64,000 bases of DNA, taken from the NCBI RefSeq assembly GCF_007197555.1, contig NZ_CP041614.1, positions 2,782,001 to 2,846,000 on the forward strand, read 5' to 3'. Source of the DNA: Shewanella psychropiezotolerans. Lineage in GTDB: Bacteria; Pseudomonadota; Gammaproteobacteria; Enterobacterales; Shewanellaceae. Under the pieces are notes generated by a model. The model was not told where the DNA came from. It searched no databases and was given only the letters and a program-made list of their open reading frames with translations. Both the position numbers and the translations under genes were made by a program. Shown here in pieces: positions 15,138-57,969 of the stretch (position 1 is the stretch's first letter; every line of letters starts with the position of its first letter).

Positions 15138-15637
15138 CTGTGCCTGTCTTTGATATGTACTTTCTTTTGTACGGGTAATTTTTATAGTGTTTGGTATCCT
15201 GTGGTTCAGCACTATAATATTTCCTAGCTTCCTAGCTTCCTAGCTTCCTAGCTTCCTAGCTTCCTAGCTTCCTAGCTTCCTAGCTTCCTAGCTTCTTACA
15301 AACTTCCTCAGGTTCGACCTCTGTACCTTCTTATCTCATTGCTCTCGATCATTGTCGACCTTTACTTGCCAAAACCTATAAATCTCGTTAATAACATGTT
15401 GCATTATTGTATATCGTATATTTTATGTGTTAGTTTAGTTTTTGGTGATTAATCGAATGATTTGTGTTCAATCATTATCGCGTTGACTCAAACTGATTGT
15501 TAATTGACAAGCAAATATCACTAGCACGACTAGTAAAAGCGGCATGGGCAATTCGTTCTAAAGTCGCAGAACAGAAATCGTGGCATCAGCAGTGGCCCGT
15601 CACGTTACTTTATCCTGATAAAAACGAGAATATAACA
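15138..15637. other. 500-base intergenic region with microsatellite
   Basis: No credible gene lies here. The region holds the octamer repeat at 15221-15295 and AT-rich promoter-like DNA (15380-15480) upstream of the M43 protease. An in-frame upstream start at 15497 exists but would bury the signal peptide. Confidence 0.6.
15221..15295. repeat. Octanucleotide microsatellite (TTCCTAGC)9
   Basis: Nine perfect head-to-tail copies of TTCCTAGC plus three bases. Each copy contains CTAG, a tetranucleotide usually rare in enterobacteria and relatives. It lies about 340 bases upstream of the secreted protease start and 84 bases past the solute-binding protein gene, so it is intergenic. Confidence 0.97.
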
Positions 15638-40323: not shown

Positions 40324-41466
40324 ATGCATCTGCACTTAGGTGAACTTACACCGGAAACCTTCCTTAGAGATTATTGGCAGAAGAAACCTCTGGTTATTCG
40401 ACAAGGATTCAGAAATTTTGAAGACTTACTCACGCCCGAAGAGATGGCGGGTCTTGCCTGTGATGAACTGGTCGAGTCTCGCCGTATCTATAAAGAGCTA
40501 GGACAATGGCAGGCCGAGTTCGGCCCTTTTGATTCTTATGAAGATTTAGGAGAGTCAGACTGGACTCTGGTCGTTCAGGCACTAAACCATTGGCTACCAG
40601 ATGCAGAGCGGCTTATTCAGTGTTTTGATTTTATTCCCCGCTGGCGTTTCGATGATGTCATGGTGAGTTATGCCACACCTGGTGGCGGTGTTGGTCCACA
40701 TATTGATCTCTATGATGTGTTTATCTGCCAGGGCTCTGGCCGTCGTCGTTGGCGGGTGGGAGATAGAGGACCACATAAAGAGTTTGCCGCACATCCAGCA
40801 CTGCTGCACACGGAAGCCTTTGAGCCCATTATTGATGTCGAGTTATTGCCCGGTGATATCTTATATCTGCCACCAGGTTTTCCTCACGACGGGGTGACAC
40901 TGGAAGCGTCCATGAGCTTCTCTGTGGGATATCGCACCGCATCAGCTAAAGATATGGTGAGCGCGCTCGCGGATCATCTGATCGATAATGATTTAGGCTG
41001 TGAGCAGATAGCCGATCCGGGTCGTCCCCTTGCCAGGCAAAGCGGCAAGATAAGTGATGCAGATCTGGCCCGTATCAAGGCGCAATTACTCGATACTCTG
41101 GATGATCAACTTATTAGTGAATTTTCCGGCCGTTATCTGACTCAATCTAAGTGTGAATTGGACCTTGTTGAAGAAGAATTAGGATTTCAGCCCGCTGATA
41201 TTGTTGAGCTTCTCGGCAATCAAGGGCTAACTCGTCTTGGGGGGCTACGCTGTCTCTATTTTGAACATTCAGTCGAGCAGGGGATCTTCTATCTCAACGG
41301 CGAGAAAATATCTATGTCGCCTAGGTTGATGAGCATAATTCCCATGCTCTGCGATCATCAAGTCCTTACGCCTGTGATGCTAGAACCTTGGATTAAAGAT
41401 GATGGCTTCATCGACATGCTCACCATGTGGATCAATGCCGGTTTCTGGTATTTCGAAGAAGATTAA
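40324..41466 (+). CDS. roxA: Ribosomal protein L16 arginine hydroxylase (JmjC/cupin)
   Basis: The 380-residue 2-oxoglutarate/Fe(II) oxygenase (YcfD/RoxA) hydroxylates an arginine of ribosomal protein L16. The iron site His126-x-Asp128 (GPHIDLYDVF) and the distal His in PPGFPHDG are present. The C-terminal half forms the helical/winged part of the family. It is followed by a perfect terminator at 41485. Complete. Confidence 0.92.
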   Translation: MHLHLGELTPETFLRDYWQKKPLVIRQGFRNFEDLLTPEEMAGLACDELVESRRIYKELGQWQAEFGPFDSYEDLGESDWTLVVQALNHWLPDAERLIQCFDFIPRWRFDDVMVSYATPGGGVGPHIDLYDVFICQGSGRRRWRVGDRGPHKEFAAHPALLHTEAFEPIIDVELLPGDILYLPPGFPHDGVTLEASMSFSVGYRTASAKDMVSALADHLIDNDLGCEQIADPGRPLARQSGKISDADLARIKAQLLDTLDDQLISEFSGRYLTQSKCELDLVEEELGFQPADIVELLGNQGLTRLGGLRCLYFEHSVEQGIFYLNGEKISMSPRLMSIIPMLCDHQVLTPVMLEPWIKDDGFIDMLTMWINAGFWYFEED

Positions 41467-41484
41467 CCTTTTAAAACTCGTCAT

Positions 41485-41512
41485 AAAATGGAGCCATAAG
41501 GCTCCATTTTTG
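41485..41512 (+). terminator. Terminator of roxA
   Basis: AAAATGGAGCC/GGCTCCATTTT with an ATAA loop and T run. It lies upstream of the 41564 start, so the next gene is a separate unit. Confidence 0.9.
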
Positions 41513-41563
41513 TTAGAGTATTTATATTGTTTTACATCGTCTTTTGGTTTGATTAGAGAGACG

Positions 41564-41965
41564 ATGTCGTATTATCTCATCGAAGGAGAGCCAACTTTGG
41601 CGATTGAACACAGCGTAATCATGTCAGTTTTAAGCTCATTGGAGTGCCGTACTAACTTCACCATCAAGAAGATCACCGAGTATATGTTGCCTCAGCTCAA
41701 GGAACCCGTGTACCTGCACGGCTCGGCCAGTGACTGTCAACTGGTGATCAGACCCGCTTATGAGGTGTTTCTGGCGGATCTCAGTGGGCTCGAGGGGGTA
41801 AAACATAAACAGGGTTATTTTCATAACAATGAGATGACGCGTTTCCCAAAGCGAGTACAGAAGAGCCTCAACGGTATTCATTATGGTTTGGCATTTAAAT
41901 TTGAAGATGAAGCTGCCGTTAAGCGATTCATCAAGCGTCTGATCGGTATTATTAATGGCGAATAA
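41564..41965 (+). CDS. Small protein resembling YgaC (DUF2002), tentative
   Basis: The product has up to 133 residues. Its C-terminus (HYGLAFKFEDEAAVKRFIKRL) and central PVYLHGSASDCQLVIRP recall the E. coli YgaC/DUF2002 pattern, but the similarity is from memory and weak. The ATG at 41564 has only GAGAG ahead; a TTG at 41597 has GGAGAG. A start upstream at 41399 would cross the roxA terminator. Its last codons (AATGGCGAATAA) contain the ATG of the first 56-bp repeat unit, showing an original 11-base overlap with the following gene. Confidence 0.55.
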   Translation: MSYYLIEGEPTLAIEHSVIMSVLSSLECRTNFTIKKITEYMLPQLKEPVYLHGSASDCQLVIRPAYEVFLADLSGLEGVKHKQGYFHNNEMTRFPKRVQKSLNGIHYGLAFKFEDEAAVKRFIKRLIGIINGE

Positions 41966-42290
41966 TACCAAACTTGATAAACGCTTAATCGTCGATAGGA
42001 TCATTTATTAATGGCGAATAATACCAAATTTGATAAACGCTTAATCGTTGATAGGATCATTTATTAATGGCGAATAATACCAAATTTGATAAACGCTTAA
42101 TCGTCGATAGGATCATTTATTAATGGCGAATAATACCAAATTTGATAAACGCTTAATCGTTGATAGGATCATTTAATAATGGCGAATAATACCAAATTTG
42201 ATAAACGCTTAATCGTTGATAGGATCATTTAATAATGGTGAATAACACCAAATTTGATAAGCGGTTAATCGTCGATAGGATCATTTCTGG
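41955..42290 (+). repeat. Six 56-bp tandem copies of the 5' end of the Gre-like gene
   Basis: Copies start at 41955, 42011, 42067, 42123, 42179 and 42235, exactly 56 bases apart. Each of the first five opens with ATG and encodes MANNTKFDKRLIVDRII with or without a final Tyr, then TAA. The next ATG overlaps or abuts that stop (TAATG). The sixth copy is the true start of the Gre-like gene and has the most synonymous changes (GTG, AAC, AAG, CGG). Because 56 is not a multiple of 3, each unit changes frame and meets its own stop. Confidence 0.97.
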
Positions 42291-42819
42291 GCTTGAGCTT
42301 GCCAAGCAGGCAGCTATGTCTGCGGCGAAACAGGCCCACGAGACCGCCACACACAGTGAAACTGTGGCCAAGAGTAAGTATGAGACTTTTGGCCTCGAAG
42401 CCTCATACTTGGCCCATGGGCAGGCTCAACGAGTCGCAGAATGTGAAATCGAGTTATTGGCCTATAGGTCGTTGAACTTAGCCTGCTTCTTAGATGATTC
42501 AGGTATAGACTTATCTGCCTTGGTGACCCTCGAAGACGAGCTAGGAGTAGAGAACACCTATTTTATCGGCCCCGGCGCACCGGGTATGAAAATTGACCTC
42601 GAAACTGACAAGAATATTGACCTGAAGATTAACAAACACACAGAGATTGATTTAGCGGCCGGGTGTCATAAAAATTCAGACAAAGGGCAGCGGATGATCA
42701 TCGTCATCACTCCATCATCTCCCCTTGGGCAGTCACTCATGGGCAGGTATCTTGATGATACCGTGCGGCTCAATATAGGCGCTCAGCCTAAGGTTTATGA
42801 AATCACAGGGGTGGAGTAA
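42235..42819 (+). CDS. GreA/GreB C-terminal-domain protein
   Basis: The 194-residue protein ends in a Gre/Rnk-type FKBP-like domain (ITPSSPLGQSLMGRYLDDTVRLNIG, about residues 160-187). The N-terminal 70 residues are Ala-rich helical, possibly a coiled coil, but I see no GreA-type acidic tip. It may bind RNA polymerase like Gre or Rnk. Its ATG (42235) is the last unit of the 56-bp repeat array, so its translation may be coupled through five minicistrons to the upstream gene. Confidence 0.75.
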   Translation: MVNNTKFDKRLIVDRIISGLELAKQAAMSAAKQAHETATHSETVAKSKYETFGLEASYLAHGQAQRVAECEIELLAYRSLNLACFLDDSGIDLSALVTLEDELGVENTYFIGPGAPGMKIDLETDKNIDLKINKHTEIDLAAGCHKNSDKGQRMIIVITPSSPLGQSLMGRYLDDTVRLNIGAQPKVYEITGVE

Positions 42820-42934
42820 AACATCCTGGAGATTAATGCTCGTTAACCCCTGTCTTTTATTACTGAATTTGTTAGTCTTTTTCTAATTCTACTTGATTTA
42901 TCGGCCATAATGGTTAGTTTGGTTTGTATCGGAT

Positions 42935-56655: not shown

Positions 56656-57969
56656 TTAATTCACTACCACTTCTTTAATCGCAATCATTTCACCATTTCG
56701 GTCACCACTCCTCATCATAAATGTGACTTTATCACCGATGGATAGCGGTTCGCTGGTAACTCTGTGGACTTCTTTTTCATTGTTAGTAACACTTGATCTA
56801 GAGTAATAGCATGTGTGCTGGTCACAAGACATTTGATAATTGCCATTCACTTCCACTCTAACAAAAAAATCAGCGAACGAACTGTAAGTATCGCTAAATG
56901 ACATGGAGATAGTATTGGTTTTTAATAGCGCTTTTACCTCAGAAAAATGAGGGTTAACTATGACTTCTTTTTTATCTACAATTTCACCATTTGAGCCACC
57001 AGTTCTCATCGTAAATGTGACTTTGTCACCGAAGGATAGTGGTTCGCTGGTAACTCTGTGGACTTCTTTTTCATTGTTATTAATACTTGGCCAAGAGTAA
57101 TAGCATGTTTGCTGTTCACAAGACATTTGATAATTGCCGTTAACCTCCGCTCTAACAAAAAAGCCTGAGAACGAACTGTAAGTATCGCTAAAAGACATGG
57201 AAATGGTATTGTTTTCTAATTGTGCTTCAACCTCAGAAAAATATGGGTTAACTACCACTTCTTTTCTATCTACAATTTTACCATTTGAGCCACCAGTTCT
57301 CATCGTAAATGTGACTCTATCACCAAAAGACAGCGGTTCACTGGTTACTCTATGGACTTCTTTCTCATTGTTTTTAACACTTGGCCAAGAGTAATAGCAT
57401 GTTTGCTGCTCACAAGACATTTGATAATTGCCATTCACTTCCACTCTCACAAAAAAATCAGAGAACGAACTGTAAGTATCGCTAAATGACATGGAAATGG
57501 TATTGTTTTCTAATCGTGCTTCAACCTTAGAAAAATAAGGGGTAACTATTACTTCTTTTTTATCTACAATTTTACCATTCTTGCCGCCGGTTCTCATCGT
57601 AAATGTAACTTTATCACCAAAGGATAGAGGTATATTGGTTTTTCTATGGACTGTTTTTTCATTGTTATTAACACTTGCCCTAGAGTAAAAACACCTTTGC
57701 TTTTCACAAGACATTTGATAATTATCATTGACTTCCACCCTAACAAAAAAATCAGGTAATGAACTATAATCATTGCTAAATGACATGGATATATTGCTAT
57801 TATCCAGTTCGGCATGTACTTCGGAAAAAGATAATTCAGCCCCTAACTCATCGTTTATATCTTCATTGGTGTAGTTAGTGCTCATGGCTTGAAAAGAGAC
57901 AGTGTTGAGTACTGCTATTAAGTACAAATGGAATTTTGTCTTCGACAAAAATTGCATAAATTTATTCAT
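56656..57969 (-). CDS. Secreted protein of four 98-residue tandem repeats
   Basis: The 437-residue protein has a signal peptide (about residues 1-30, FHLYLIAVLNTVSFQAM). The rest is four head-to-tail repeats of exactly 98 residues (294 bases). Each has ISMSFSxxYSS, FFVRVEVNxNYQMSCxxxxCYYS (a cysteine pair four residues apart) and VTFxMRTGGxNG. The middle copies are nearly identical, so they are recently amplified or kept similar by recombination. It resembles carbohydrate-binding or adhesin modules in layout, but no family was recognised. Confidence 0.8.
   Translation of the reverse strand: MNKFMQFLSKTKFHLYLIAVLNTVSFQAMSTNYTNEDINDELGAELSFSEVHAELDNSNISMSFSNDYSSLPDFFVRVEVNDNYQMSCEKQRCFYSRASVNNNEKTVHRKTNIPLSFGDKVTFTMRTGGKNGKIVDKKEVIVTPYFSKVEARLENNTISMSFSDTYSSFSDFFVRVEVNGNYQMSCEQQTCYYSWPSVKNNEKEVHRVTSEPLSFGDRVTFTMRTGGSNGKIVDRKEVVVNPYFSEVEAQLENNTISMSFSDTYSSFSGFFVRAEVNGNYQMSCEQQTCYYSWPSINNNEKEVHRVTSEPLSFGDKVTFTMRTGGSNGEIVDKKEVIVNPHFSEVKALLKTNTISMSFSDTYSSFADFFVRVEVNGNYQMSCDQHTCYYSRSSVTNNEKEVHRVTSEPLSIGDKVTFMMRSGDRNGEMIAIKEVVVN

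Follow-up and report, generated by a model that had tools for sequence, protein, structure and literature searches.

Mycobacterial interspersed repetitive units (MIRUs; Supply et al. 1997, as described in a 2025 review) are short repeats which, on the review's account, are inserted at the start codons of genes and carry an internal open reading frame (ORF) coupled to the gene at a spacing of -4, with a likely minimal effect (PMC12548453), and three 77-bp MIRUs are reported between senX3 and regX3 in strain H37Rv (PMC4213456). For translational coupling in general, the same review gives -4 to +3 as the efficient range of stop/start spacings, efficiency dropping with longer overlap (PMC12548453). 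Here we analysed a 64,000-nt stretch of DNA (the window, to which coordinates refer unless another contig is named) from Shewanella psychropiezotolerans YLB-06, in which a tandem array of very short cistrons separates two genes. An earlier note on this DNA knew of no described equivalent, a view contradicted by the MIRUs, which are, in the review's account, repeated short-ORF units coupled to the following gene (PMC12548453).

As with MIRUs, the short-ORF units of the window stand at a co-directional gene junction with ends that couple to their neighbours (here by geometry only), and they form tandem copies of variable number, between strains for MIRUs and among species here. By their description MIRUs are mobile and use the -4 spacing, whereas the window array has spacings of -11, -1 and +2, and its units duplicate their own junction and are not dispersed; a search of the host genome with two units returned three matches, all inside the window array. 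The units of the other chain-bearing arrays reported below look unrelated by eye. The architecture is already known from MIRUs; what is new is that the units are junction-born and non-dispersed, arising at several junctions with unrelated-looking units. Bicistronic designs of expression engineering are artificial and usually have a single leader cistron; the window chain is natural and in series. The two share a short ORF that delivers ribosomes to the following gene; the engineered case is named in the review (PMC12548453).

The locus also resembles the translational coupling of overlapping genes (PMC12548453), with which the arrays described here share spacings of -1 (TAATG), -4 (NTGA) and -8, and in its single-copy relatives the two genes are such an overlapping pair. 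Five of the six links in the window fall inside the coupled-pair range of -8 to +3, with the first (-11) outside; unlike a coupled gene pair, however, the window has five very short cistrons in series, derived from tandem duplication, between the two genes. In promoter tandem repeats of Mycobacterium tuberculosis, reported to undergo copy-number phase variation, repeat number before a gene likewise changes, but those repeats are described as acting via promoters (PMC12817950), for which the evidence here is weak. Among the literature matches listed there was no description of such arrays in Shewanella.

Anatomy of the junction array

The array lies between two co-directional genes, termed here gene A and gene B, and the features of the region are as follows.

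41597..41965, + strand: gene A (122 aa), probably starting at a TTG that follows AAGGAG (start inferred from conservation in relatives), stop TAA at 41963-41965
41945..41969, + strand: possible hairpin of 9 bp whose loop contains the first ATG (MFE -8.5, z -1.25, not significant)
41949..42286, + strand: tandem array, period 56, 6.0 copies, 96% alike
41955..42011, + strand: minicistron 1, MANNTKLDKRLIVDRIIY and stop, -11 relative to the gene A stop (ATG tracing)
42011..42067, + strand: minicistron 2, MANNTKFDKRLIVDRIIY and stop, TAATG (-1) (ATG tracing)
42067..42123, + strand: minicistron 3, MANNTKFDKRLIVDRIIY and stop, TAATG (-1) (ATG tracing)
42123..42176, + strand: minicistron 4, MANNTKFDKRLIVDRII and stop, TAATG (-1) (ATG tracing)
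42179..42232, + strand: minicistron 5, MANNTKFDKRLIVDRII and stop, +2 spacing (TAATAATG) (ATG tracing)
42198..42225, + strand: sigma-70-like TTGATA-N16-TAGGAT, one per unit (six), from a scan for promoter-like sites; weak
42221..42224, + strand: AGGA, Shine-Dalgarno-like, 10 nt before the gene B ATG and likewise present ahead of ATGs 2-5 (first at 41997-42000)
42235..42819, + strand: gene B, GreA/GreB C-terminal-domain protein, 194 aa (by Pfam and named relatives), +2 from minicistron 5

Tandem Repeats Finder identified six 56-bp copies in the assembled sequence (6.0 units, 96% matches, no indels, score 606), and tracing of ATG starts, the only starts considered for this array, yielded minicistrons of 18, 18, 18, 17 and 17 codons, which bears out the proposed 56-bp tandem duplication of a gene's 5' end into five minicistrons. 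Stop/start spacings from gene A through minicistrons 1-5 to gene B are -11, -1, -1, -1, +2 and +2. As the earlier note had it, the first ATG (41955) lies within the end of gene A, with an 11-nt overlap, and the last is the true start of the Gre-like gene (42235), whose 5' end and own start make up the sixth copy. Because the gene A stop falls in the first copy and the gene B start in the last, both proteins are untouched and, as anticipated, the final ATG is kept at any copy number. The peptide length of 17-18 codons was also given correctly; the sequence of the first peptide was not, since it is MANNTKLDKRLIVDRIIY, with Leu and not Phe. The claim that each ATG overlaps or abuts the preceding stop holds for three of the four steps between minicistrons (TAATG, a one-base overlap) and fails for the fourth and for the step into gene B, where two bases separate stop and ATG. 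When the 269-nt spacer was shuffled with its dinucleotides kept, an ATG chain of any kind arose in 4 of 500 shuffles, indicating that the chain is not due to chance. Since the host genome is a single 6,449,204-bp contig and shorter, diverged arrays occupy the same place in two other genomes, the existence of the array is not an assembly artefact.

Gene A was present in 92 of the 129 genus genomes searched and matched no Pfam family above the cut-off (query from 41567). Gene B scored 26.2 bits against Pfam PF01272, slightly below the 26.9 cut-off, and 21.9 against TIGR01462, for which the threshold is 139; its named relatives are annotated as transcription elongation factor or GreA/GreB family elongation factor, a few being hypothetical. 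Gene B itself contains a 24-bp repeat (42588-42635, IDLETDKNIDL...), of which an S. benthica relative (P0002, 202 aa) has one more unit by eye, so that this linker is variable in length too. An Rfam search of 41400-42900 gave no credible match, with two sub-threshold hits at E 0.46 and 0.68. The idea that the hairpin at the first ATG acts as a coupling switch was rejected, as the hairpin is not significant and its stem is predicted neither at later units nor in single-copy relatives.

The window junction in related genomes

We compared the window locus across the seven genomes whose gene B is most similar (at least 74% identity), all of which have the overlapping A/B junction. Copy number is six in the window, three in S. 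violacea (G123), two in the MAG DT_112 and one in four genomes, namely S. benthica DSM 8812, S. benthica KT99, G073 (the first 30 residues of its gene B match exactly those of a protein that carries the name S. psychrophila) and G028; the junction sequences of G014, G015 and G094 match those of DSM 8812, KT99 and DT_112, respectively. The units that precede the main copy are all 56 bp long and share a common junction, the first unit of S. violacea having gained one base and lost one. A gyrB+rpoB tree of 14 genomes gave the order (G028,(G073,(G123,(G000,(G094,(G014,G015)))))), G000 being the host of the window, with supports of 64-100, those near G000 and G094 being only 76 and 64. The single-copy S. 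benthica pair is nested within the array-bearing clade, and the tree favours a history in which one gain and one loss, the latter in S. benthica, would explain the distribution of copy number. That each of the three array-bearing genomes duplicated the unit independently was considered and set aside because unit length and junction are shared and the tree needs one gain and one loss, even though two of its node supports are the 76 and 64 noted above. The gap between gene A and a JmjC gene is ~650 nt in S. benthica KT99 (L002 ~1989-2642) against ~130 nt in DSM 8812, which suggests an insertion.

The chain is present in all three orthologous arrays at this locus. In DT_112 the spacings are -11 and -1; in S. 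violacea the chain runs through other ATGs with spacings of -1, -8 and -1, the original first minicistron now being a 7-codon stub. The predicted ribosome-binding strength differs with the array: calculated with ViennaRNA at 37 °C, for a host that lives at deep-sea temperature and pressure, the duplex with the anti-Shine-Dalgarno sequence at the gene B start is -4.0 kcal/mol with the array versus -1.7 in all four single-copy genomes. Every unit start after the first, including the gene B ATG, has AGGA at -4.0 kcal/mol; at the first ATG the value is -3.0 in the window and S. violacea and -1.7 in the first copy of DT_112, and the substitute first ATG of S. violacea, which is without AGGA, reaches -2.8 kcal/mol. 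Because the AGGA derives from gene B codons 15-16, the duplication supplies gene B with a better ribosome site, by predicted duplex, than its single-copy relatives have. The 3' part of the unit, which holds the AGGA site, is less divergent than the 5' part in 12 of 12 minicistron-containing pairs (p<0.05, uncorrected, in four of the 12), which is weak evidence because gene B is itself conserved over that part.

Arrays and chains at other junctions

Spaced samples of three genomes were scanned for arrays with a period of at least 25 and a score of at least 100. The samples amounted to 1.264 Mb for G000, counting the window, to 0.8 Mb for G123 and, for the sole genome sampled outside the clade, G022, to 0.4 Mb. 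The scan found 24, 31 and 2 arrays, that is, 19.0, 38.8 and 5.0 per Mb, and its own tally, at any array position and including one doubtful case (L110), put a chain in 3 of the 24 G000 arrays and 3 of the 31 G123 arrays. The L110 chain was dropped for its TTG starts and an 8-codon ORF. Several arrays lie at gene 3' ends, for example L121:18496-18783 (87 bp x 3.3). Beyond the window, four further junctions with chains were found, one in the G000 samples and three in those of G123.

L115:15431-15822 (G000): period 67, five 21-codon GTG minicistrons, +1 spacing
L172:3707-4045 (G123): period 92, three 31-codon minicistrons, all -4
L179:6895-7380 (G123): period 161, two 54-codon minicistrons, GTG
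L179:17143-17499 (G123): period 95, three 32-codon minicistrons, all -4

Seven co-directional arrays contain both the gene A stop and the gene B start, and five of them, the window included, carry a full chain; under a link limit of -8 to +5 the count is four of seven, the window being counted only under the wider limit of the other scan because its first link is -11. The two junction arrays without a chain are at L173, with a transposase gene, and at L212, where the repeat makes an in-frame N-terminal extension. When each unit was shifted by one base, the chain remained in 52 of 200 trials for L115, 130 for L172 and 45 and 12 for the two L179 arrays; the corresponding 5 of 200 for the window cannot be set beside these values, since the unshifted array there also fails the -8 to +5 limit. 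The period of a junction array has to fit its stop/start spacing. The idea that all such periods are 2 mod 3 fails, since L115 (67) is 1 mod 3 with a +1 spacing.

We also followed L115, L172 and L179:17143-17499 into orthologous places. At the L179-type junction the number of minicistrons is three in S. violacea, none in G000, two in G014, one in G073, two in G015 and one each in G094 and G028, with every link at -4, GGAG ahead of each and the chain present in six of six arrays. For the L172-type junction gene A was located in three of the seven genomes, and the chain was unbroken in all three (minicistrons: S. violacea 3, G000 2, G073 3). The L115-type junction carries a chain in four of six usable genomes, or three of five leaving aside G000, where the chain was first noticed, the count omitting G094, whose junction copy lies at contig ends (L243, L244). 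In G014 and G028 the chain there is made up of ORFs of 39-43 codons that extend across units; G073 has no chain at this junction, and an apparent chain in S. violacea was dropped, as it consists of a 2-codon ORF and a TTG ORF with spacings of +8 and +12. For both the L172- and L115-type loci the first candidate gene B start that yielded a chain was taken, so these counts are biased toward chains.

Taking the window, L179- and L172-type loci, 12 of 12 traced arrays carry a chain, where shuffled spacers would lead one to expect 1.83, and the same holds for nine of nine arrays other than those in which a chain was first seen, with ~1.80 expected; minicistron counts are not independent, because of shared ancestry and possible sequence exchange. 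The commonest unit lengths, from codon counts, lie 12 bases apart (95/83, 92/80, 67/55), which keeps the frame; the L172-type units of G000 and some L115-type units fall outside this simple pattern. Survival of all ten L179-type minicistrons through the observed divergence would have p ~5e-5 if they were neutral and independent, a guide only, since they are not independent.

Origin of the array and competing readings

We consider it somewhat probable that the array arose by local tandem duplication across the operon junction and was then filtered by selection for unbroken translation. The duplicated segment would run from just before the gene B start, within the end of gene A, to about codon 17 of gene B; the duplication would have occurred in an ancestor shared by S. 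violacea, YLB-06, DT_112 and S. benthica, with expansion to six copies in YLB-06 and loss in S. benthica. Each middle copy would then be a minicistron whose stop coincides with the next start or lies only a few bases from it, and ribosomes could traverse the array by termination and reinitiation or load at the AGGA of each unit. Gene B would thereby stay translated and polarity from untranslated mRNA would be avoided, the peptides being by-products. Duplications without a match between unit end and next start would be lost more often, and copy number would drift afterwards. Such a translation filter would explain the recurrence of chains, the frame-keeping length changes and the drifting copy number. 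From the comparisons above we infer the one-gain-one-loss history, the translation of the units, the avoidance of polarity and the near-neutrality of copy number.

The stepwise reinitiation proposed in the earlier note fits the geometry of most steps, -1 and +2 lying within -4 to +3, and fits it poorly at the first link: longer overlaps are described as coupling less efficiently, so the -11 link should be a weak step (PMC12548453). Relay from gene A alone is consequently not expected to raise Gre-like output, and, judging from the motifs, fresh entry at the AGGA sites may matter more than this relay.

Dose tuning is possible on such a layout. If each unit, with its AGGA and ATG, were an extra ribosome entry site and unit number set the output of the Gre-like protein, the stronger duplex over single-copy relatives (-4.0 versus -1.7), the -1 and +2 spacings within the efficient range and the spread of one to six copies across species would all be expected. 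We nevertheless regard such tuning as rather unlikely, as the same architecture occurs at unrelated gene pairs, and as copy number at 24 M. tuberculosis MIRU loci is reported to be homoplasic with no detected selection (PMC7481465), a result that counsels caution about tuning. Given copy numbers of one to six and recurrence at unrelated junctions, a tolerated duplication fits at least as well as tuning. On/off phase variation of the frameshift type was rejected, because copy number leaves the frames of both genes intact. A fully inert array, in which untranslated duplications were tolerated because the flanking genes stayed whole and the chain followed by chance from duplicating this period near a start codon, would accord with the abundance of arrays, 21 of 24 in G000 and 28 of 31 in G123 having no chain by the tally of the scan, which counted arrays at any position, and with the low coding density reported for YLB-06, 77.28% (PMC10059138). 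It appears improbable, slightly more so than tuning, in view of the chain in all 12 arrays that were traced at the three loci, diverged ones among them, and of its retention in 52, 130, 45 and 12 of 200 one-base shifts at L115, L172 and the two L179 arrays.

Transcription from within the units would be a further way to serve gene B. The TTGATA-N16-TAGGAT site recurs once per unit, six times in all, and the senX3-regX3 MIRUs are reported to drive senX3-independent expression (PMC4213456); the sites match at only 9 of 12 positions, however, the seven promoter-like sites of the region (these six included) stand about one standard deviation above the mean of shuffles (4.6 +/- 2.1), and single-copy relatives have the motif too, as part of a coding sequence, so that tandem internal promoters seem a distinctly improbable cause. 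The least probable reading, to which we give very little credence, is that the 17-18-residue peptides are themselves functional, for example as mimics of the N terminus of the Gre-like protein. The window encodes a near-identical peptide five times, and its differences from gene B are mostly synonymous: counted, here and below, relative to each genome's own main copy, units 1, 2 and 5 have 3/2, 4/1 and 4/1 synonymous/nonsynonymous differences. These copies, with few and mostly synonymous differences, are too young to tell retention of the chain from retention of the peptide. In DT_112 and S. violacea the peptides are much altered (MATSVKNDQRLIVDRITY, MAMSDKLDKCLTLDRIIC), with 0 synonymous and 12 nonsynonymous differences in the DT_112 minicistron and 1 and 6 in unit 2 of S. 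violacea; since nearly all are nonsynonymous, the peptide is not what is kept there. The N terminus of gene B is itself free to vary across species, differing by 1 synonymous and 7 nonsynonymous changes from DT_112 and by 1 and 9 from S. violacea, and the L179-type minicistrons sum to 37 and 46, the peptide changing slowly at that locus. At the level of sequence, the chain is better kept than the peptide in old arrays.

The array shows a route by which a tandem duplication can enter an operon and leave it intact: where the end of one unit meets the start of the next, ribosomes may still pass through. With zero to five minicistrons at orthologous sites, the junctions of deep-sea Shewanella offer a natural dose series, posing the question of serial ribosome reinitiation on one mRNA and of whether step number affects output, and the junction arrays suggest a possible origin of MIRU-like intercistronic ORFs. 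A broader and doubtful extension is that deep-sea Shewanella hold a genome-wide class of locally born, frame-locked junction minicistron arrays in which the chain is selected over the peptides and copy number is a fast-evolving translational dial; the perhaps 5-20 per genome is extrapolated from three arrays in 0.8 Mb of G123 and, the window aside, one in 1.2 Mb of G000.

Elsewhere in the window we observed two other repeats: a 294-bp repeat x 3.8 at 56687-57793, within a minus-strand ORF (56656-57969), and a perfect 8-bp repeat, TTCCTAGC x 9.4, at 15221-15295, which is a possible slippage locus.
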